Positions 2,371 to 42,355 of a stretch of DNA of 64,000 nt are shown piece after piece. A program made the position numbers and the translations under genes. The notes beneath the pieces are model-generated. The model saw nothing but the letters and a program-made list of their open reading frames with translations, ran no database searches and had not been told where the DNA came from. This DNA is from Polytrichum commune (Eukaryota; Streptophyta; Polytrichopsida; Polytrichales; Polytrichaceae): NCBI GenBank assembly GCA_950295325.1, contig OX485804.1:11160001-11224000 (forward strand), given 5' to 3'. Numbering within the stretch: position 1 is the first letter of the stretch; each line of letters begins with the position of its first letter.

Positions 2371-5300
2371 ATGTCGCCGCCTACGTGTCTCCCGATGCCG
2401 AGCTTTAATCTTCTCTCCAGGATTAACAGCAACAGGAAGAGTAGCAGGATGGCGGTGCAGGCGGCCGCAGCGGAGGAGTGTGTAGAGACGATTGTGGAGG
2501 AGAAGAAGGGCGAGAGGCAGAGCTCTTTCACTCTTGGGGTCAGCAACGAGAATGCTCGCCCGGAGCATCTGGTCATCCTCGTCAATGGAATCGCTGGAAG
2601 GTGAGTAGTAGTTAATGCGGCCATTCTTACAGGATCAATCGTACTAACTTAAAGGTAAGCAGGAATGGACACATGGACAATTGGAGGGAAATGCATGAAT
2701 GACAGATTGTATTTGGGTCATTGCTTTTGTCCCTGGGGGTCTCCGAAGCTCAATATCCATTGCTCAGAATGCCGGTTGCTACAATATCTTGTCGGATTCA
2801 ATATCATCAGGAGAGTTCAATCGACTTTTGGTGGGGATCGATGGGTTCCAAGGTTTTTAGCATAAGAGAAAATGGGATTGAGGAACATCTGTTTCATAAT
2901 TGCAAGAAATGAAGAATGCGCATGCTTTGTGTTGTGTTGAACACCTCAAGGTTGCAGAAATGGAGGGAAATATATGGATGACAGAATGCATTTGGCTCAT
3001 GTCACTGGGCTCTCCGAGGCTCATAATCCATTGTCTAGAGTGTCGGTTGCTACAGTGGTTTGTCGGATTCAATAATCATCAGGATAGTTTACAGACTTTT
3101 GGCGAGGAGCGATTGGGGCTTAAGTCTTAAGCATATGAGAGATTGAGATTGAGGATCATCTGATTCATGATATTGTGGGTTCGAGATCATTTGAAGAATG
3201 TAAATGCTAAGTATTGAACACCTCAATTAAGGCCGTAGAAATGGAGAATTGGAGAAAAATGCATGGATGACAGGATGCATTTGAGTCATTGAAGGCGGGA
3301 AAGATGGGTAGCCCATTGCTTTTCCTCCGGGGGGTCTCCGAGCCTCATGAATCCATTGTCCAGAGAGACTGGGATTGAGGAGCATCTGTTTCACAATTAT
3401 CTGGGTTCAAGATCGTGTGAGCTTTGTAAAGCATTTCCTGCAGTGGGGGCGGGTGGGATGGGATCTTCTGTTATTTGTTCTCTCCTATTGCAAGAAATGA
3501 GGAATGGGTATCCTATTATGTGTTGAACACCTTATGGTCGGAGGAATGGAGAAATAAAGAATGGGAGGGAAATGCATGGATGACATAATGCATTTGGCTC
3601 ATTGATTTGTCCCTGGGGTCTCCGAGGCTTATAATCCATTATCCAGATTGTCGGTGGTTCGGTAGTTTGTCGGATTCAATAATCGGGTTAATTTACCGAC
3701 TTTTGGTGGGGATCGATGGGATCGAAGGTTTTAATCCTAAGGGAGATAGTGATTGAGGAACATCTGTTTTATAGTTTTTCTGGGTTCAAGATCATTTGAG
3801 GTTCGTAAGCAATTTTCTGCAGTGGGGAGGAATGATAAGGATTCTTTGTTCTCTCGTGTTGAATATCTTGACCCGCCACCATGTCACCCCAAAATGGACC
3901 AGTCTGGTCCAGAGGCATCCTACATAATTTGGGACTTCACTTTAAACTAAGGTAGCTGACTTATTTGTAGAGCCACTGCCAATGCAAGAATATCAGAACA
4001 TTCCCCGATGCAGAAGTTGTACCAAAATAGGCAACACCCTCATTTAGATGAGTTGAATTGAATGGTTGATAACTTTGCTGACATAGCACACCTTCGTTGT
4101 ACAAATCTTTGTGAGGTAAACATGTGATATCAGCAAGGGTGGATTCTTATCTATCAGCCTACACACCGTAACTTGAAGTTATATCTCGAGAGTCTAGAGG
4201 GGAAGCTCTACCTAGAATTCAGCAATATCACATAATATCTAAAGATTCACCAATTATATATTTGTCTGTGTTATGTATAACTCTACAGTGGTGTCACACT
4301 AATAAGCAGACCATAGAAATGTTGTTTGGTTTTGAATGCAGTGCCGAGAATTGGAGATTTGCTGCTGAGCAATTCAAGCAGAAGCTTGCTGATAAAGTAG
4401 TTGTGCACTGTATGTACGCGCACCTAAATTGGTGTTGTTCTTGTTCTCTTTTGAATGTGATGCAGCTCAAATTGAAATGGTTTCCCTAGTTAAAACAAAT
4501 TGAGTGTTTTGTGTACGTTGCAGAAGTTATTGGTTAGAGATTAGTTATTGTAACAAGCTCTGGAAATCTGCAGGTAGTGCCACCAATTCTGCTTTGAGGA
4601 CCTTAAATGGCGTTGATGTCATGGGGAATCGTCTTGCTGATGAGGTCCTCTACCATCTCTTTCATATTTCCTCTTAAGAGCAGTCAGTGCTTACTTGTCG
4701 TTACATCTCATTATCAACGATCTTTGTAAAAATAACAACACACGAATAAGAAATATGCAAACAATCTTGCTGAATGAAACTCATTTTTCTGCAGTTGGCA
4801 CTTTCAGGTCATGAAAGTAATTAAAGATACGCCTGGTGTGACAAAAATTTCATTCCTGGGTCACTCACTTGGTGGCTTGATTGCACGATATGCCATCGGC
4901 CAGTTGTATGCGCCGCCTGGTAATGAACCTATATCTTAATTAGTCGTACTCTTTGTATGTTATGTTCATTACTCACCTCTGTTTTTGCTTTCGTCCTAGT
5001 GATGCTAGTTTGTGTGGGCTTCATGAATTTTGAGGAAATGTGTGCTCTTTTGTTGATGTTTAGTTTGTCATGTTGATGAATGCCCTCTGGAAAGTAGACC
5101 TATCCTTTGACTCAATGGGACTTTTCGTCGGGAGTTGGTCCCCGTATGATTTATCATTGGTTGTGTTGTAATCAATATTATCTTTCCACTTATAGTGCAT
5201 GCTCGGAGGTGGTGTTTTGAATTTGAACGAAGAGCAACCTATTTTGGTACACTGAGGGCCAAACTTAATTTAGCACTTCTTGGCATGCCAAAATGTGGTT

Positions 5301-14379: not shown

Positions 14380-14640
14380 TTAATCTTAAGTGGGCACCTA
14401 TTTTTGCATGGCATGTGGTTAGGTGTGTCTCCAAAAATAGATGTCAAAATGACATATGTTTAGAAGAGATTGGACTTGATGTTCAAAATATGATGAGCAT
14501 CCTGAGCTCAATGATGAACATACTTGGAATGACCATTTAATGAGCACAAAAATCTTCACTTTGATAATGAATAAGACATTCACCTGAGCTCAATGATGAA
14601 CATACTTGGAATGACCATTTAATGAGCACAAAAATCTTCA
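14380..14640 (-). repeat. Dispersed repeat family R1, inverted copy
   Basis: This reads on the minus strand in the order seen at 680-960: 'tgaagatt', 'tttaaatggtcatt' (diverged), then a 'ccacatgcc' region. It overlaps the perfect tandem duplication at 14501-14664, which has duplicated part of this copy. Confidence 0.45.
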
Positions 14641-14664
14641 CTTTGATAATGAATAAGACATTCA
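14501..14664. repeat. Near-perfect 82-bp tandem duplication
   Basis: The 82-bp unit that begins 'cctgagctcaatgatgaaca' and ends 'gaataagacattca' occurs twice, at 14501-14582 and 14583-14664. I see no differences between the units, so the duplication looks recent compared with the surrounding decayed repeats. Confidence 0.9.
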
Positions 14665-14789
14665 CATGAGCTATGAAAACTATGAAGAAAGTGGCTACGG
14701 CCTCGATTTGGATTTGCTAATCGCCTCGTACTAATTGCGTGTTTCAACTTTCATATTCTAGGGGAAGTGGGCTGGTCGGAAAATGTAAC

Positions 14790-15060
14790 CACTGAAGACC
14801 CATCTTCCTTACCGATGAACAGGGTGAACCGACCGCTAGTTACCAATGAACCAGTTGAGCTTCAGACATAAGTAATTGAAGTTCAAGACTTCACGAAAAT
14901 TACTCATCTTTTTAAGAGGAATCTGTGTAATATGCCTCGAATCAATAATGAGAATCCAAAGGATCACAACACGTAACCTGTTGGACTTGGAAACAATAGG
15001 ATTTTGATGGATTATGCTCCAAAATCTCCCTGGACATTGTTCCGTACATTAGGAAATCAC
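14790..15060 (+). repeat. AACCGGTT-type dispersed repeat R2, copy B
   Basis: This copy carries the same ordered words as copy A: 'gctagttaccaatgaaccagttgag', 'gaagttcaagacttca', 'cacgtaacctgttggacttgg', 'aataggattttgatggattatg' and 'tctccctggacat'. It is diverged and non-coding. Confidence 0.65.
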
Positions 15061-15159
15061 ATGTTTGATATCCTAGACACATGAGACTCAGTGTGCGCAC
15101 AGCTAATTAGTTGAAGTAGATTCCATTCAATGTTGGGTTTGAAAAATACCCTGTTAGAC

Positions 15160-15795
15160 AGTGATCGGGGAGATTTTTGGGCATACTATTCGGTTGAGAT
15201 CCGAGTGTTTGCAAGTCCAACCGGTTACATGTTGACATCCTTCGGTTTTCCCTTTATTAAATTCTTTATATTCTATAAATTCTTCTAGAATAATCCGTAA
15301 TTTTCCTGCAGTCTTGAACTTCAACCAGTTATTTCTCAAACTCAACCGGTTAATCTGTAACTAACTGTCAGTTCTCCCTGATCATAGCTGTTGAAGTTCA
15401 TGGTGTCGGGAAATTTCCCAATCATGCTTGAAGAATCGACTGGAATATACCTCAATTTCGTGAAGAGAAACCAAAAGATCACAACATGTAAGTGGTTGGA
15501 CTTGGAAACACTAGGATCTTGACCGACTTCACTCCCTGGACACCGATCCTGTTTAGGAAAATGGTGGCAATGATTGTGGAGAACCGGCAGTTAGTTACAA
15601 ATGAACCGGTTGAACTTGAGAAATAACCGGTTGAAATTCAAGACTGCAGGAAATTTACCAACCATTTTAAAGGAGTTTATAGAATACAACCCAATTTAAT
15701 AAAGGAAAAGTGGAGGATGTCAACATGTAACCGGTTGGACTTTCAAACACTAGGATCTGAACCGTCTGTGCCCAAAAATCTCCCCGAATGGTGGC
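15160..15795. repeat. Inverted pair of R2 repeats with a partial copy between
   Basis: A minus-strand R2 copy at about 15160-15400 faces a plus-strand copy at about 15580-15795, with a partial plus-strand copy at about 15410-15565. The outer ends match in inverse: 'ggggagatttttgggca' at 15168 and 'tgcccaaaaatctcccc' ending at 15785. Both arms carry 'ccggttacatgttgacat' or its inverse, the region around 'cctgcagtcttgaa', and AACCGGTT. A transcript across this would fold into a long imperfect hairpin. No protein is encoded. Confidence 0.75.
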
Positions 15796-16448
15796 ACTGA
15801 ACATATATACATAGTTGCAGGTTTCCAACAAGCACCATGTATGGCCTTCTTCCCAGAATATGCAGTTTGGAATCCGGACAACTAAGGGTGAGTTTCCGAT
15901 GTAGGGTGCTCGTCACTAGATTCTAGATAATAGTGGGTTGGAGGTTTTTGCATGTCCATAATCAAAAGCCGCCAACCAACCATATTCTGGTGGCTTATTA
16001 AGATGTGGAGGGTTGTGAACATGGGTTGCTCGACTTCTATGCACCCATTAAAGTACTTTTTAATCTACAAGTGTCGGTCACTGAAGGATTGAAGACTAGT
16101 TTTAAAAAGAGGAGAATGTTTAAACCTGTAGGAGGAGGCTAGTAAGTGAACCCAAATTGGAGAAGATGAGAGTAGCCACACTAAATATGATATTCTATGT
16201 CATTGTGGTAACTTTTTGGATGACACTTCTTATGAACAAGTGAACAAATATTGTCATGGATGATGGATGAGTTCATCATTTTGTTAGAAACTTGTGATGA
16301 AATATTGTCATGGATGATTGAAATTTGGATGAAGATCGCTTGGTAAGTGACAGTAATTGCAACACTATAAATCTATAATCCCCCAAAAAATCTCAAGGAA
16401 TCACAATTAACGTTGGGTTGAGTGACACTATACCACGGTTTACAATTA
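15796..16448. other. Intergenic region, nothing recognised
   Basis: I see no reading frame of interest and no clear repeat in this stretch. A short local duplication around 'aatattgtcatggatgat' occurs near 16246 and 16293. Confidence 0.4.
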
Positions 16449-17592: not shown

Positions 17593-18062
17593 GTGGCGGG
17601 TTGGTCGTTACTAGATTATAAGCCAGTGGAATGGGCCTTTTTTGCTTGGTGTAGGATCCAAGAAAGCAAGATCATCCTAGGTCCCGCTTTTGTGGACGAT
17701 CTCAACCTTGGGTATTGGTGCTGGTGGTACTTGAATTCAGAGAGATATATGTTACACTGGCTAGTGAATGGTGGATATTGTTGGTGATAGGCATGATCTC
17801 TTTCTGGTGAGGGACTTCAGTGAACTTGGGATGAATTGATACTCGGGTGGGAAAGCTGTCTAACTCAGGAGTGGCGGGAAGATTGTAAGCCAGTTGAGGG
17901 GCCATTGTTGTCTTGGTGTACGTAGGATCCGAGCTTTGGAATGACCTGACCTGGCAGCAGCTTTAGTGGGCAATATTATTTCTTGAGGTCTTGGTGCTGG
18001 TGGTAGCATCTCTTCGGAGAGAGTATAGGCTAGTGAATTATTGTGGATTTTGGTAATGGGGA
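17593..18062 (+). repeat. Diverged tandem duplication forming the pectinesterase leader
   Basis: Copy 1 (about 17593-17790) and copy 2 (about 17871-18062) share ordered blocks: 'gtggcggg', 'taagccagt', 'gggcc', 'cttggtgta', 'ggatcc', 'cttgg' with 'tattggtgctggtggta' against 'tcttggtgctggtggta', 'agagagtata' or 'agagatata', and 'ctagtgaat'. Copy 2 ends on the pectinesterase start codon ('ttttggtaATGG'). The matching place in copy 1 reads 'ttgttggtgatagg', without a start codon. This suggests duplication of an upstream or 5' untranslated segment. Confidence 0.65.
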
Positions 18063-20566
18063 AGAAATGTTGCATAGTGTCTGTGTTGCTTGTGGCTTGT
18101 GTAGTTGTGGGGTTGGCTGTGGGCATTCCTCTGGGGCTTAAGAAGGCCAGGGAAACGGTCACAGTGGCAGCATCTGACAACGGAATTACCACCGCTTGCG
18201 AGGCTACGTCTTACCCTGCGACTTGCAATCAGACTTTCTCGGGTGGCAACTATACGACGAGTTCAATGGGCGTGACCAAGTATTCGGTGACCGCCGCTTC
18301 GACAGGCATCAACAACACCCTGGCTTCTGTCCTCGACCTTAATACAACAGACGAAAAAATTGCCGCTGCCGTGGAGGTTTGCTTGGAAACACTGGGGTTA
18401 TCCCAGGAGCAGCTGGACACCGCTCTTGCAACTCTGAATAATTCAACAAGTGCAAGCGTACTGCAGACCACACTGATCAAGGACATCCGAGCATGGGTGA
18501 GTGCTGCCCTGGAGTTGCACACCACTTGCATCGACGCCTTCTTGGAAGTCAACACCACTCTCGGTACCTCGCTCCAGACAAACTCGTCCCACACCGACGA
18601 GCTTCTGAGCAATGCCCTTGCGTTTCTTGCCTCCTTCGAAGCCTACGGAGATGATCTCCAATCGTGGAAAGCCTCCGGGTTCAGCCTCCCCAACAATTTT
18701 AGCCTCTCCAACCTAACCAAAGGCATCCATTTCCCCAACCTCACTGGCCTCGGCCACCGGAAGCTGCTTTCTTCCCAACTTCCCGAGGAGAAAAATGGTC
18801 TACCGAGCTGGGTGGATGCAAAGGTGCAGCGCCATCTCCTACAAGCTGCCTCTAATTCAAGCTACGACGCCGTGGTGGCAAAAGATGGATCTGGGAATTA
18901 TACCACCATCCAGGCAGCAGTGGATGCGGCTCCTCAGAAATCTTCCAATCGCTACACAATCTACATCAAAGCCGGGACCTACGCTGAACAAGTGAATGTC
19001 AACAAGAGCACTAAGAACCTCGTCTTTATTGGTGATGGCATGAACCAGACGATCATCACTGGGAGCTTGCATGTCGCCAATAGCACTAACATGACAACTT
19101 TCAAATCAGCAACTCTGAGTAAGTTCGAAATTATTCCAGGGGTCTTCATTTTATTTGGTGGAGATGACATTGCTCACACATTGGTTTCTTGTATGTATGT
19201 GTGGTCAAGCCTTCATCATAGTTTGCAGTCTAACTTCCAGCGGAGCTCATGCAAGTGCCAAGAAGTGTATCAGAATCTGTGACTGCATGCGGCTTCTCCT
19301 TTGGTGGGATATTGAGTCCATTTTGTTTCTTTGATTCGAGTCTGATGATATATATCGAAACTCAATTTTGTACTATATCCATATTATTGTACCGTTCGTC
19401 CATTTTGTCCGCCATCATTCCCGGTATGCATTTCAGAATGCGATCCACTTGGAAACGAGCCGGTTAATGTGTACTTGAACTAACATGTGAGTAGTTGTCT
19501 GTAACGAGTAGGAAAACCGACTCCTAAGTGGGTAGTCACCGTAAAATTTAGATGCTTGAGAAATGGAAAACGGTTGTGTGGACACATGTAAGAGAGCAAC
19601 CTTCTTAAGTAGACTTCTCATTCGCACTTGTGTAATAAGTATCCACTTGAACATCGATGTGGTCAGTAAATACTTCATAATACTTCACGTTTGTCATGAC
19701 GTGGATCCTTCTTCTGCGTCTTCTTTTTCTTTTGCTTAGTAATCTATTTTTGGCATGGAAGAGGAGGGGTACTAGTGCTAATGAATCAAGTCTCAATAGT
19801 TAGGGGACCGTCACAAACAAATGGCTGCTTGAATACTAATTATTCCGACTGTGCGTGGGGATTGTCATGTGCAGTTGTTACAGGTAGCGGCTTCATAGGC
19901 AAATTCTTCAGAGTCGAGAACACGGCCGGATCTTTTGGCCAGCAGGCTGTTGCACTCCGAGTGACCGCTGACAAGGTTGCATTCTACCAGTGCACTATTG
20001 ATGGGTGGCAAGATACATTGTACGTTAACACACTTCGCCAGTTCTACAGAGAATGTGATGTACTGGGCACAGTCGATTTCATATTCGGAAACGCGCAGGC
20101 CGTTTTCCAGTCCTGCAATATTATCGCGAAGAAGACGACGTGGTTCGGCCAGACAAATACGTACACCGCACAAGGCCGGACGGATCTGCACGCCAATACC
20201 GGTCTCTCGTTCCAGAACTGCACCTTCGACGGGACGGATGAGCTGAAGGCCAACACCACAAACTACAAAACGTATTTGGGGCGACCTTGGAAGGCGTATT
20301 CGACATGCGTAATCATGGAGTCAAATCTTCTAGGTCTTATTGACCCCACCGGATGGCTTCCATGGAACACATCCAGTTTTGGGTTGAACACGTCTTACTT
20401 TGCAGAGTATCAAAACTTCGGAGCAGGTTCGAATACCTCAGCACGGGTGTCCTGGTCACACCAAATTACTGATAATACCACCGCCGATAAGTACCAAGCG
20501 AGCAGTTTTATTCAAGCGAGTTCTTGGGTGCCTGCTTACAACATTTCAGTGACATTGACATTGTAA
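18056..20566 (+). CDS. Type I pectinesterase (PMEI domain plus pectin methylesterase domain)
   Basis: Two exons, 18056-19118 and 19875-20566, give 584 residues. The enzyme removes methyl esters from cell-wall homogalacturonan. Residues about 5-27 are a hydrophobic signal anchor after MGKKCC. The PMEI-like pro-domain spans about 45-215 and includes the paired cysteines Cys48 and Cys57. Two basic subtilase-type processing motifs follow: RKLL (235-238) and RHLL (259-262). The catalytic domain starts near 270 with GSGNYTTIQAAVDAAP. It has QQAVAL (377-382, Gln378), QDTLY (400-404, Asp401 general acid), DFIFGNA (422-428, Asp422 nucleophile) and LGRPW (488-492, Arg490), so the active site is complete. 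Many N-x-S/T sequons fit a secreted glycoprotein. The intron (756 bp) falls after SATL, and the exon 1 frame stays open into it to 19282. The start follows the leader duplication described separately. Confidence 0.95.
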
Positions 20567-21039
20567 GTTAATTAGCTTGACATGTGCGTCCATTCTCTTC
20601 AACGTCCAACACCTTTTAGGGTTTTATGGGCTTTAGGTTAGATTAGGTTAGGTTAGGCTCCATCAATTAGGTTATGCAATAACTTAATCCATTCATTCAT
20701 TTGAAAGCATGGTGCGTGTCGCAAGAGATCCCACCATTGTACAATATCTGGTGATCGGAATAAAGCGCCTGACTCCCAGTACTTTGCTTGTGCAAGTGAC
20801 CTTTGCTTTCCTTGCCTTTGTCAACAAGTGTTGGTAGTTGAGAAGAATGGCAACAGCAAATGCTCCACATGTGTAAATATTGGAAGCAATTTGCACTCGC
20901 ACAGAAAGAAATTTTAATTTCCACTCCTAGGAGTTTTGCCAAGGTTAATGTGTAAGGTCGATGCATCCATAGTCGATTGGGTCCATTGAACTGCTCACTA
21001 GGGTCATGTAATGCCGACGTACATGAGATCTATATTATT
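20567..21039. other. Downstream region of the pectinesterase
   Basis: This is probably its 3' untranslated region followed by spacer. A short run of 'ttaggttagattaggttagg' type sequence at about 20635-20657 is too short and irregular to be a telomeric tract. No gene is supported. Confidence 0.4.
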
Positions 21040-21046
21040 TAGGTGA

Positions 21047-22467
21047 ACAAAGTTAGAGGAGAGGCAGTCATTACCGTTCGGTTAAGAGATTTTGTGCCAG
21101 GTGTAGAGAAGTATAAGGCGGTGCAAAATTTTCCCATGTAGGAAGATAGAAATAAGGAGGACTGTAATTTTTTGGTAATTTTATTCTTTAAGTTGAAATT
21201 ATTGTGGGTTTTTGAAGCCAAAAGTTTTTCCGAACATAATACCAATGTCTAGGTCTATCATAACTGCTCATTCCTCCTTACTTTGAGACTCAAAACCATA
21301 ATATATGTCTTGGTAGTATTGGTTGTAACCTGATCGAAATTGAATCCTAGCCTAATCAAATTAAGTTCCAACTTGATTGAAATTGAGTCCTAGCCTGATT
21401 GAAATCACAACAATCTATAGATTGTTGATGGGGTCTTGATCGAGAGTAGGTAACTCTACTATAATGTTTATGTGGTGGCGGCTTGTGATTGATTACACTC
21501 ATAAGAGTTTTGCCAATTGTCATAGCCAAGGAGTAGCATTGAGATGAGCAGATATGGGTTAACCTATAGATTGACTATGTGTAACCCTAAAATTAACGCT
21601 TGGAACTTTGTAGCAATTTCCATATTCATGATTTTTTCAATTTTTTTTTTCAAAGTCTCTTTAATTTTTGCTTCTCTTTTAATGATTTTTTTTTTTTTTT
21701 GCTATTACTCTTCCTAAACAAATGCAAACTCTCTTATTTTATTGGTTCTACATGCCTCAACCTTAAGCTTAGCATCCCCGTCATAAGAGTATTGCCAATT
21801 GTCGTAGCCAAGGAGTAGCATTGAGACGAGCAAATATGGGTTAACTTATAGATTGACAATGTGTAACCCTAAAATTAATGCTTCAAAATTTGTAGCAATT
21901 TCCATATTCACGATTTTTCAATAAAAAAATTTCCATATTCTCCTTAATTTTTGCTTCTCTTTGCATGAAAAATATTTTTTGCTATTACTCGTCCTAAACA
22001 AATGCAAAGTCTCTTATTTTATTGGTTCTACATGTCTCAACCTTAAGCTCTGACAATATCCTCCTCCTCCCTCCTCCACCTGTAACTTCCTAATAGCGTG
22101 GAGTTATTATAGTAGAGACACTTATTCCCAATCAAGACCCCATCGGCAATCTATAGGGTACTGGAACTTTGATAAAGTCATAATCAATAATGCCATGACA
22201 TATGCCTTGGTTTTGAGTGCTAAAATGAGGAGGAATGAGCGGTTAAAATGAGCAGTTATGATAGATTTTAGACATTGGTAATATGTTCAAGCCAACTTCT
22301 GGTTTCAACAATTCATAATAATTTCAAGTCAAGGAATAAAATTCTAAAAAATTTGCAGTCCTCCTGATTTCTATCTTCCTATACATGAAAAGTTTGTATA
22401 TCCTTACACTTCTCTAGATCTAGTCCAAAATCTCTTAAGTGAACAGTTATAGGCACCTCTACTCTAC
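21047..22467. mobile_element. Foldback-type element with about 430-bp terminal inverted repeats and 7-bp target duplication
   Basis: The left arm (21047 to about 21480) matches the reverse complement of the right arm (about 22085 to 22467). Examples are 'ttaagagatttt', 'aggaagatagaaat', 'aggaggactg', 'tgaaattatt', 'accaatgtct', 'tatcataactgctcatt', 'actcaaaacca', 'gatggggtcttgat' and 'ctctactataat'. Flanking both ends is TAGGTGA (21040-21046 and 22468-22474), a 7-bp direct repeat consistent with a target-site duplication. The centre holds two direct copies of a roughly 270-bp segment (period 282 bp). No transposase frame is present. The long arms fit a foldback or Mutator-like non-autonomous element; the superfamily is not decided. 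Confidence 0.8.
21499..22049 (+). repeat. Two direct repeats in the centre of the foldback element
   Basis: Unit 1 (21499-21770) and unit 2 (21781-22049) share 'tcataagagt', 'ttgccaattgt', 'agccaaggagtagcattgag', 'atatgggttaac', 'tgtgtaaccctaaaatta', 'tttgtagcaatttccatatt', 'aacaaatgcaaa' and 'tctcaaccttaagct'. The units differ mainly in the length of their T-rich tracts. Confidence 0.8.
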
Positions 22468-22474
22468 TAGGTGA

Positions 22475-23723
22475 TTGAATCAAGTGCAGGTTCTAGGAAT
22501 AGTACAAAGTCAAGTTACAAAGTCAAGTCAATGTTTACACTTAAGCTAACAAGCTACATGAGCCTCATGCAGCTGCTTTTTATCATTGGACATCTTTATT
22601 TGTTAAGGTAGGCAAACTTATTTCCATTACCCGAAAGCAATTTTGCATAAGTGTAGTACAAGTGTGATATGGGGAGTGAACTTTAATAGGGTTGGAAATT
22701 GATATCATAATACTCAACAAAAAAATTACAATTCGTCTCAAAGTTATGAAATCACTGTAAATTTTCAAAGGCAAGATTCTCTCCCAACCTATATTCACAG
22801 CATAGGTTGATGTATCTCCAAAAACTGGGAGAGGAAAACTTAAATACAATTAGTGTCTTTTTAACTTACCTTTCCATCCCACAAAATGTGAAAGCTACAT
22901 ATTTGATTCTTCATGGCTTGCCCACCATTAGAAAATGATAACTACACGTGGAACTTCACGATTTTGGGAGACTCCATGTACTTATATTTATGTATTTAAT
23001 TTTAGGGGGGGGGGGGGTGTGCTATCGGAAATGAGTATGTCTGCCATATGTATATGGCACTTGGCTTATACTTAAGAACGGACTTGAAAGTTATAAAAAT
23101 TTTGTTAAAATGAGATAGGACCGTGCGGTCAAACTATAGAACAAATCGTAGGTCCAATAGTAATCACAAGTAGGAGGGTTTATGTAATCAAGTACAACAA
23201 AAGAGAATCTTTATTTTGACCTTTTAACTTTTTCGCATTTCAATTCTTGAAGGTTTCAGAGGCCGTATCCGGGCCTTGAAATGTCATATGGAGAGATTTG
23301 AGATCACTTAATGACATATAAGATAAGATTATCAAGACTGACCCAATTTGGAATTTTGCGTTTCACATATAATACAAGTTATATTGTACTAAATATGTAA
23401 TCGTAAAATTGTCTAGCTTCTTTCTTTTCTTTTCCTTTCCACTTTTCTAGTTTTTAGCTAATAAAAACCACAATGTCAATACCAACAACCAATATTTTTT
23501 TACTACGACTTATCAAGTTTTGTTACATGTTTCCAATTCCTCTTGTACACTAGGACACAAGAGATTCTAACAATTCATCAACCAATCCATAGGTAGAGCC
23601 ACATGCATAGCATGTGTATATAAGTATGAGTGACTTGAAAAAGACAAATATACTGCGTGAAAGTAACTACAAATACGAGTCTATATATAAGACTTGTTCT
23701 CACCTTGTGAAGAGTTGGTCTAA
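22475..23723. other. Intergenic region with a poly-G run
   Basis: AT-rich, with no supported gene. A run of about 12 G at 23006-23018 is conspicuous in this composition. Minor open frames (such as minus strand 22583-22849) show no family resemblance. Confidence 0.4.
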
Positions 23724-24689: not shown

Positions 24690-27600
24690 ATGAGTGCACA
24701 GATGGTGATTTCGGTGCCACGGCTGCCGTGCTCTACTCTTAATTCTCGTCATGGAACGCACCAGCTTGCCACAGTCTCGAATTCTTTCCAATCAATGTCG
24801 TTGTGGCTCCCGAGCGTAGGATACTTGAGGGGATCCACATGCCAGCTTCGGGATAGGGATTCGGCAGGAAGAGCTGTGAAGTCGACATTCACCCCGTATA
24901 CGGAAGAAATTGATTCTGTAGGTGAAGATTTATCGTCCTGTCCCGTTCCGTCCCGTCCTGTTCTGCGTTTCGCATTATCAGAATCTCTGGATCATTCGAT
25001 GCGAGAATTTGGAATTCTTGTCGCATCCTCTTGTTGTTTGATTCTATCGTGACGGAATTGAATATTAACTGAAAACCTAAGTGGAATCCCCTGAATGGTT
25101 GTACCAGGAACGAACCACCGGTGCAGAAGAGGAAGCATCGACGAGCGAACTTCTGTGTTGTCCAATCTGTTTCCAACCTCTCAGTAGAAAGGGTCCTGGA
25201 GGCCTTAACCGGTAAGTAAACCTAACATTTGATCTGTTGTGGCATCAAAATTGGTGTGCCATGTTAAAGTAGAGTGGGTTCCCATGACCTGTCATGCAGC
25301 AACTATGTGTCATTTCACACCCTCTCCCTCTCTAGTTGCCACCAAGTGATTGCAATACAATAAATGTGGGTTGATGATGAATAGTGTGGGACATGCTACG
25401 CCAAAGCATATATTTAGCATAATGGTTGTTGTTAGGCAGGGGTTAAGCAAAGCAATTTGCATTTTGTTGGTGCTTCTATTCCTGATCGGGCATGAGGAGG
25501 CATATTATCACCCACAATGCCATGGCATGACCACTATGTATGTTATTGGATATGAGTCACCCTGCCGCCAGCTATAGCATGCACTCAATACCTATGTCTT
25601 TATCTACTGCGGCTTGGTATGTAGGGTGCTTACTACATGCCGTGACATGGCCCCTTGCATCCATGACCTAGTTTGTAATGCTCATCCTCATCTAAGAAGT
25701 AATTTTTTTAATTTACATTGATGGGGAGCCTCTTACTCACGTTTGTTTAATTTAAGTCCACTTTACACTTGAGCTGTCAACTGGAGAGCTTGAATGTTTT
25801 CACCAGGCTTGTAACACATAGATGGTACCTTGATGAAAAGCCATGTGGAATGAATACGACAAGCTCGCGTTCAGAATCCTCAGCTACCTCAGGAAGGTCA
25901 CGTTGCGTAGGAGTTCAAGCTCTTTTTTTGGAAACCAAGCTAATTGTTTTTCAAGCATCTTTGGCTTGTCATGAGCTCTCTTTTGTTTAGTACCATTCCC
26001 TCCTTGTTATCTCACTTTGAGCATGGCCACTTTAAACTTGCTCAAACTATTAAGAGCTTGAGGATTGATTGGTCAAAGTTTCAATAGTTAGAGCTTTAGA
26101 TGAAAGCTTGTCAAATCGAAACATTAAACTACCAAAAGTTGTTGCAAGCGCAAGCTTTCAACTTGAGCTCTGGTGGAAAGGGTGCCTAAGACTTACTCTC
26201 AAGCTTGCCACTTGGATTTTGTGCAGATTTGCGATAAAAAGGTCAGGTTTCTCGTGCCCTCGATGCAAAAGGGGTTACTCAAACAGGGACGTGTATCTTG
26301 ACCTTACAGTTTTAGGAGACTCTCAAGAGTATAACGAAGTGTACACACCTGGGATTGAAGTTTTCAGGTACTAAGTCAGTCACCAGTTTTTTTTAAAGCC
26401 TTTAACAAAGCTTGTCCCATTCGCATTGAGTTTGTCAAGTCCTCAACCTATTCAACGGGTGCAACAGATTATACCATTTTTTGCCATTTTCGGAGCGTGC
26501 ATGTAAGTTTCAAACTTCTTGAGACTTGCGCAATCTCTAATTGTAAGTCAGGCAAGCTGTAAAGTTTAGTCATTGCACTCTAAATATGGGATTATCGAGA
26601 TGCAGCAGGTGAGGTTTTCATTCAATTTCAACAGTCCCTGATGTTTAATACATTCGGTGCAGAAATCCATTGGTCTCATTTGTGTATGAGAGAGGTTGGC
26701 GACAAAGTTTCTATAGAGCTGGCTTTCCAGGACCTGATGAAGAGGTAGGTTCCAGCTCATATGCAAACTCATTGATTATTTTATTACTATGTGAATTATG
26801 GATAAATCTCTGAATTCAAGATAATGAAACGTGGTTTCCTCCGCATCACAAGACTGAGTACAACTTCCAGCTTCATGGATAGTATCATGAAGTCATTTCA
26901 GACAATTTTTGTATTTGGAAAAATGACTCTAGTGATCATTATGCCTTCCATCTTTTATCATCTTACTTTTCAAAAAACATGTCGGACCTTGAAGGGTTAA
27001 TAGGTGCATTAGGAATTGCCTTATCTGTGCAGTTCAAGATGGCCCAAGACTACTTGAAGCCACAGAAGGGAGGGGTTCTGCTTGACGTAAGCTGTGGTAG
27101 TGGACTGTTTACCAGACGCTTTGTGAAAAGCGGTGACTACAAGGCAGTTATTGCTCTTGACTTTTCAGAGTCTATGCTTAGACAGACGAGCGAGTTCATC
27201 AAGAGTGATTCATCACTGTCAACTTCGTGAGTGCAAACCATTCGGTTACAGTATAAGACACGTGCTTTCAATCTTCAATTTTGGAATAGATACATACCCT
27301 TGCCAGATTTGCTCAGATTATTCACTTACAGAGGAACTGATATAATGGAAACTTGAAATTGAAATTGAGATTTGCAGGGATATAGCTTTGGTTAGAGCAG
27401 ATGTGGCGCGGCTACCATTTGGAACTGGAACTATTGATGCTGTACATGCTGGAGCAGCTCTACATTGCTGGCCGTCCCCAGCAGCTGGGGTAAGGGCCAC
27501 TTTGCACTATGGTGACCACTATGTAGTGCAAGTGCTTGAGGGCCTAGGAACTGACTTAAGATTGCTAACTAAATAATGACCATGCACAGATGGCAGAAAT

Positions 27601-41272: not shown

Positions 41273-42355
41273 ATGTTTCTGAGGCGATTCGCAGGGCCGT
41301 TGCTGGCGAGTGTTAAGGAATCCACAGGGCTCGTGGGGTTGGACGTGGTGCCTAATGCACGGGAGGTTCTCATCTCGCTCTACCAGCAAACCCTGAAAGC
41401 TGTGGCTCCCATCCCCGAGTCTGCGCAGTACAGGAAATCGGTGGAGGCTCTCACTCACCATCGCCTCCAGGTAAATGGCGTCACCGCACTCTCATATTCG
41501 ATTCGAGCTGAGTAGGATTTTCTGCGTTTAAGAGCACAGCGGTGCAACGCCCTCTGCACACGGATTGGATTGGGGGTTGGAGTGCATTTTGGCTGTTCAA
41601 TGTGTAGTAGGAACATTGTTTGGGAGTGATTTAGGGTTTGGTGCAATGTCAAGTCGGGATTCACATGAGCCGAGTGCGGGTGATAGTAGATTACGGGTCT
41701 CCTGCATCATAACTCAATTCTAGCTGTGTAGGGTATGGTCCGTTCAAAAGCTCTGCACACGGATTGGTTTGGGGTACATTTTGTATGAGTACATTTTGGC
41801 TGTTCAATCCTTAATCGGATCAATGTTGGTGCAATGTCGAGTCAGGATTCACGTGTGCCAATTGCGAGTTACAGTAGATTACGGGTTTTGTGCCGCATAT
41901 TTCAATTCGAGCTGTGTAGGGTTTGCTCCATTCAAAAGCGCGGCGGTGCACAGCTCTGCACACGGATTGGATTGGTGGTTGAAGTACATTTTGGCTGTTC
42001 AATTATAGTTGGATCAATGTCAGAGTTATTGAGAGTTTGGTGTATTCAAGGTTCAGGTTTGGTGTGATGTCAAGTCAGGATTCACATGTGCCCATTGCGG
42101 GGATATGTAGTAGATTCTTAACCACATGCTTGATTTGTGTAGGTGTGCCAAGAAGAAGAGGATTGGGAAAACATCGAGAAGAGGATTCAGGGTGGGCAGG
42201 TTGAGGAATTGATTGTCCAAGCTAAGGACGAGCTGCAGCTTATACCCAAGATGGCCGAGTGGAAACCCTGGGAAGTTCCTGAGGGCTACAAGGTGGAGGT
42301 CACCGAAGATGATGACTCCGTCCCTTCCCATATCCCCATTCATAGGCAGAGGTAG
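41273..42355 (+). CDS. NDUFA5: NADH dehydrogenase (complex I) 1 alpha subcomplex subunit 5
   Basis: Two exons, 41273-41470 and 42143-42355, phase 0, give 136 residues. This is an accessory subunit of mitochondrial complex I located in the matrix arm. The N-terminus MFLRRFAGPLLASVKES is basic/hydrophobic like a mitochondrial targeting region. The family core follows: TGLVGLDVVPNAREVLISLY, then YRKSVEALTHHRLQVCQ, DWENIEKRI, QVEELIVQAKDEL and MAEWKPWEVPEGY. I remember the Arabidopsis protein as somewhat longer, so this C-terminus may be short. The start is the first ATG of the frame; upstream in-frame sequence lacks one. The gene is divergent from RPC3. Its intron is almost filled by a three-unit tandem repeat. 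Confidence 0.95.
41490..42120 (+). repeat. Three-unit ~200-bp tandem repeat in the NDUFA5 intron
   Basis: Blocks 'ctgcacacggattgg' (41553, 41753, 41955), 'acattttggctgttcaat', 'gtgcaatgtcaagtcgggatt' and variants, 'agtagattacggg', and 'gctgtgtagggt' recur in order with spacing near 200 bp. The array takes up most of the 672-bp intron. The first unit begins just after exon 1, with 'attcgattcgagctga' at about 41492. Confidence 0.85.

Follow-up and report, generated by a model that had tools for sequence, protein, structure and literature searches.

Two long inverted arms that enclose a duplicated core, with the same seven bases on either side, raise the question of whether the segment 21047-22467 of the Polytrichum commune DNA analysed here (a 64-kb stretch, hereafter the window, with a GC content of 41%) is a mobile element and, if so, how it was mobilised. 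An earlier note had described it as a foldback element, and this is still the best reading, with the anatomy being as described. We consider it probable that the element is an old, degenerate, non-autonomous foldback (long-TIR) DNA transposon, with Mutator-like mobilisation being the most plausible.

Genomic setting

Two open frames lie upstream of the element, at 18041-19282 and 19775-20566, the second of them about 0.5 kb before its start. In these frames Pfam searches recovered a pectin methylesterase inhibitor domain together with a pectinesterase domain in two consecutive parts. The pectinesterase domain appears to be split between the two frames as it would be by an intron, an arrangement that would point to land plant nuclear DNA. 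Of 15 open frames of the window that were scanned against Pfam beyond those at the element, three gave domain matches (pectin methylesterase domains in two and a methyltransferase in one) and none gave a transposase. The initial part of a methyltransferase domain (Methyltransf_25, E=2.9e-6) lies in an open frame at 26883-27227, which is probably an exon. No tRNA genes were found in the 64-kb window.

Structure of the arms and the core

Local alignment of the two arms in inverse orientation yields 271 identical columns out of 426 (gaps counted), with a score of 291 as against a mean of 31 and a maximum of 46 in 200 dinucleotide-preserving shuffles, which confirms the inverse match noted earlier. 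The arms had been put at about 430 bp; they are indeed long, but the measured lengths are 412 and 361 bp. With gaps set aside they are 78% identical over 347 columns (49 transitions and 27 transversions; K2P = 0.266, bootstrap 0.209-0.341), and arms of this length and similarity qualify as the long TIRs of a foldback DNA transposon. The alignment contains ungapped blocks of 198 bp (77% identity), 81 bp (75%) and 51 bp (84%), of which the inner 51-bp block has a K2P interval (0.063-0.351) overlapping that of the core. For most of its length the short tandem repeat of the left arm lies opposite gaps of the right arm, and a 13-bp duplication is seen within the right arm at 22234-22258. The ratio of observed to expected CpG falls to 0.19 in the right arm, compared with 0.47 for the left one, 0.45 for the core and 0.50 for the window, and tells little.

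Table 1. Features of the element and its immediate flanks, in window coordinates
Feature	Position	Strand	Remarks
Left TAGGTGA, candidate target-site duplication	21040..21046	+	7 bp exact; or 9 bp with two mismatches
Left-end bases without aligned right-end counterpart	21047..21053	+	arm alignment begins at 21054
Left inverted arm	21054..21465	+	412 bp; alignment to right arm, score 291 against shuffle maximum of 46
Short tandem repeat in left arm	21329..21405	+	period 22, 3.5 copies; alternatively two 35-bp copies 43 bp apart
Core unit 1	21499..21769	+	BLAST/alignment to unit 2
Core unit 2	21781..22049	+	direct copy of unit 1, 87-89% identical
Right inverted arm	22106..22466	-	361 bp; alignment to left arm
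Right TAGGTGA, candidate target-site duplication	22468..22474	+	7 bp exact

The core consists of two direct copies of a unit of about 270 bp separated by 11 bp, in full agreement with what had been claimed for it. The copies are 86.8% identical by BLAST and 88.8% over 267 ungapped columns, and outside the T runs two parts reach 92% and 96%. Their K2P of 0.122 (0.079-0.167) has an interval that does not overlap that of the whole arms. Given that the core K2P (0.12) is lower than that of the arms (0.27), the core duplication looks later than the divergence of the arms: if rates were equal, the core would have been duplicated after the arms had begun to diverge, the alternative being that the arms were already non-identical at insertion. 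It is preferable to regard the core duplication as a local event of later date, and not as something that defines the mobile unit.

Two other identities for the core were tried and rejected. A retrotransposon with the two copies as its LTRs would leave only the 11 bp between them, and their 14-base flanks match over at most 3 bp. For a SINE, there is one A-box-like motif per unit, but both B-box-like motifs sit in the arms, the + strand match in the right arm and the - strand match in the left.

The flanking heptamer

The earlier note had TAGGTGA flanking both ends exactly. The two copies are indeed exact over 7 bp, but they do not abut the arms equally, with the right copy one base and the left copy seven bases from the arm homology. 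The bases 21047-21053 find no partner in the alignment at the right end, which leaves the left terminus imprecisely defined. The chance of such a candidate target-site duplication ranges from 0.1 to 6% according to the freedom given to the ends. Among random pairs of places in the 64-kb window, a 7-bp exact match was obtained in 0.1% when one copy had to abut its end while the other was allowed to lie up to 7 bases away (20000 trials), in 0.3% (114/40000) with the ends sliding over 8 and 4 positions, and in 0.5% within 14-base flanks (20000 trials); slides of 7, 10, 15, 20 and 30 gave 0.5, 0.65, 1.9, 3.2 and 6.1% respectively (4000 trials each). With both strands counted, the window has 10 occurrences of the heptamer, the flanking pair among them, where about 8 are expected from base composition. 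Since the flanks match over no more than 3-4 bp when either arm or the core is taken by itself, the heptamer match goes with the whole unit. The pair is therefore suggestive of an insertion of the whole unit, without proving it.

Just beyond the right end, at 22503-22528, there is a perfect 13-bp tandem pair of TACAAAGTCAAGT, whose ACAAAGT recurs at 21047-21053 in the unmatched left-end bases; this sharing is probably due to chance.

Length of the duplication and the superfamily

hAT elements make 8-bp duplications, and those of Mutator-like elements are usually of 9 bp (8-11). At this locus a hAT-type 8-bp duplication is reached only with one mismatch. The 9-bp reading, TTAGGTGAA/CTAGGTGAT, has two mismatches, a level passed by 4.3% of 5000 random pairs; both mismatches lie at its edges, as they would in only 3 of 36 placements. 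Seven matches in a row with a mismatch on either side are 1.2-1.5 times likelier under a 7-bp than under a 9-bp duplication (identity 0.73-0.78). The second flanking base on each side also differs, and counting both makes 7 bp about 2.6-3.5 times likelier (calculated by hand, identity 0.73-0.77). The pattern in the sequence thus leans slightly to 7 bp over 9 bp.

If the arms were identical at insertion, the flanking duplication is expected to have decayed like them, and as the equally old arms differ at 22% of columns, it need not be intact. At 73-77% identity, survival of all seven bases would be expected for 11-16% of true 7-bp duplications of that age, and survival of exactly seven of nine for 29-31% of true 9-bp duplications. 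One step of a published survey of plant MULEs, in the part cited here, accepts 9-10 bp duplications with up to two mismatches, and the TIR library of this tomato survey demanded 80% similarity over 100 bp (PMC3310237). The outer 198-bp arm block (77%) falls below the latter threshold, and the 9-bp step is passed. Hence the misfit of 7 bp with Mutator that the earlier note had seen is not supported, given that the arms differ by 22% and that the published step tolerates two mismatches in 9-10 bp (PMC3310237). Its remark that the superfamily is not obvious stands, and the exact pattern, at 1.2-1.5 times the likelihood under a 7-bp duplication, speaks in its favour. Mutator is said to account for most foldback elements, with exceptions (PMC4079207); according to the portions of the reports cited, these include Galileo, a member of the P superfamily with 7-bp duplications (PMC4168063, PMC3169594). 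No Mutator end motif was identified in the element. The Mutator-like assignment, while the most plausible, derives only from prior knowledge and is a default rather than a result.

Coding potential, further copies and other repeats

A total of 36 open pieces of at least 30 aa overlap 20900-22600, of which we scanned the 28 overlapping 21047-22467 and one outside it. None of the 28 matched any Pfam family at the curated cut-off, and neither a MULE transposase nor a P-type transposase was found among them. With E-values of up to 5, four pieces gave matches, namely to DUF6402 (0.0069), DUF3332 (0.13), DUF4683 (0.57) and DUF4131 (2.8); being all below the cut-off, these were judged to be chance and a coding origin on their basis was rejected. 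Rfam yielded no match in the window at the gathering score, and none in 20900-22600 up to E=1.

A BLAST search with 21000-22520 recovered no further copies in the 64-kb window outside the element with E up to 1e-3. Viral contigs and prokaryote genomes (exact-pattern scans) and plasmids (BLAST) gave no match, and a phage collection gave a single 37-bp match that we judged to be chance; these are non-host collections and uninformative on the copy number in the host.

Elsewhere in the window, inverted pairs that span less than 4 kb and have arms longer than 100 bp are confined to 14804-15787. This region contains three copies of a repeat of about 220 bp in alternating orientation (about 14815-15039 on +, 15165-15396 on - and 15567-15787 on +), and a related copy is present at 1248-1489. 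The heptamer CACTGAA is found beside this cluster at 14790-14796 and 15795-15801, but since the outermost copies share the same orientation it is not a clear target duplication. A tandem duplication at 14501-14672 is identical over 82 bp and 98.9% identical over 90 bp, and is much closer than the surrounding repeats. Degenerate arrays are seen at 2661-3827 (unit spacing of about 270-310 bp) and 41493-42110 (about 190-230 bp).

Comparison with known foldback and long-TIR systems

The element can be likened to several published systems, in the case of MuTAnT, the tomato MULEs and FARE by their descriptions. As described in the cited sections of the respective reports, the MuTAnT elements of Medicago and the tandem-TIR MULEs of tomato resemble it in their long TIRs and in their foldback shape or duplicated modules, and are of similar size (0.2-1.6 kb for MuTAnT and 0.9-1.4 kb for one tomato family); MuTAnTs, like the element, are often near genes (PMC3310237, PMC4486113). 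They differ in copy number, with 218 MuTAnTs and 14 and 29 members in two tomato families against one copy of the element in the window, and in their duplications of 9-11 bp, against an exact 7 bp (or 9 bp with two mismatches) here (PMC3310237, PMC4486113). Plant Mutator-like long-TIR elements have been described both with and without gene fragments (PMC3310237, PMC4486113). FARE of Arabidopsis, classed with MULEs, likewise has long palindromic ends (cited in PMC3169594, PMC4486113). Plants are already known to carry elements built in this way, and the view of the earlier note that the combination is unusual is not supported, with both long-TIR Mutator-like and foldback-shaped plant families in print (PMC3310237, PMC4486113).

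Outside plants, the passages cited for Tm1 of root-knot nematodes describe unequal foldback-like arms and asymmetric 7-bp motifs outside the inverted repeat, comparable to the seven left-end bases of the element; Tm1 differs in that its duplications are mostly of 9 bp (8-10 bp for 45 of the 53 elements), its arms are built of repeats of about 14 bp and its host is an animal (PMC3169594). Galileo of Drosophila, a P superfamily member, shares very long TIRs and mostly 7-bp duplications with the element in the account cited, but differs in its host and in its target GTANTAC, which TAGGTGA does not resemble, and no P transposase was seen in the element (PMC4168063).

Origin of the element

Under the preferred reading of a foldback transposon, a transposase encoded elsewhere, most plausibly Mutator-like, would have bound the arms, and the element would have inserted itself some 0.5 kb downstream of the pectin methylesterase gene, with a duplication of 7-9 target bases. 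The arms would then have diverged, and the internal unit of about 270 bp would have been duplicated later, probably in place.

The inverted duplication could instead have been made in place, for example by template switching during replication or repair, leaving a hairpin locus that may feed small RNAs and a TAGGTGA pair that is due to chance. The single copy seen in the 64-kb window would be in keeping with this, as would the chance of up to 6% for the heptamer under the loosest ends and the strong folding of the transcript, at -493.6 kcal/mol (+) and -473.1 kcal/mol (-) as against about -306 for 20 shuffles each (z about -16 and -29) and at most -450.6 kcal/mol for 21 other stretches of the same length. 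However, any long inverted repeat folds strongly. Arm transitions leaving a wobble pair number 28 on the + transcript and 21 on the - transcript (two-sided p 0.39), a balance that gives no sign of selection for a hairpin; Rfam offers no match for such a locus up to E=1, and TAGGTGA stands one base from the end of the right arm. We regard an origin in place as unlikely. Less likely than this is that the arms are two separate, oppositely oriented insertions of one dispersed repeat with unrelated sequence between them. Unequal lengths and a divergence of 22% are indeed what independent copies would show, and another repeat of alternating orientation is present in the window at about 14804-15787, but the flanks of single arms match over at most 4 bp as against 7 for the whole unit, and a third copy is absent from the 64 kb.

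Between these two alternatives ranks, as likewise improbable, a foldback element whose 7-bp duplication is true and whose transposase, of the P superfamily (Galileo-like) or another, has a 7-bp stagger. The match is of exactly 7 bp with mismatches on both sides, which is the pattern favoured 1.2-1.5 times over an origin from 9 bp, but only 11-16% of true 7-bp duplications would be expected to keep all seven bases after decaying as far as the arms. To our knowledge, P elements are rare or absent in plants. Galileo combines long TIRs with mostly 7-bp duplications, and one copy with tandem repeats in its arms is on record in the part of the report cited, but its target GTANTAC is unlike TAGGTGA (PMC4168063).

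Implications

We know of no plant foldback family with true 7-bp target duplications, and that the element belongs to one, produced through a transposase with that stagger (for example a P-like one), appears very unlikely. The locus indicates that the length of the flanking repeat is a weak guide to the superfamily when arm decay has reached one fifth. The element would matter more only if a 7-bp duplication were proved by young copies of a plant foldback family; otherwise its significance is mainly one of annotation.
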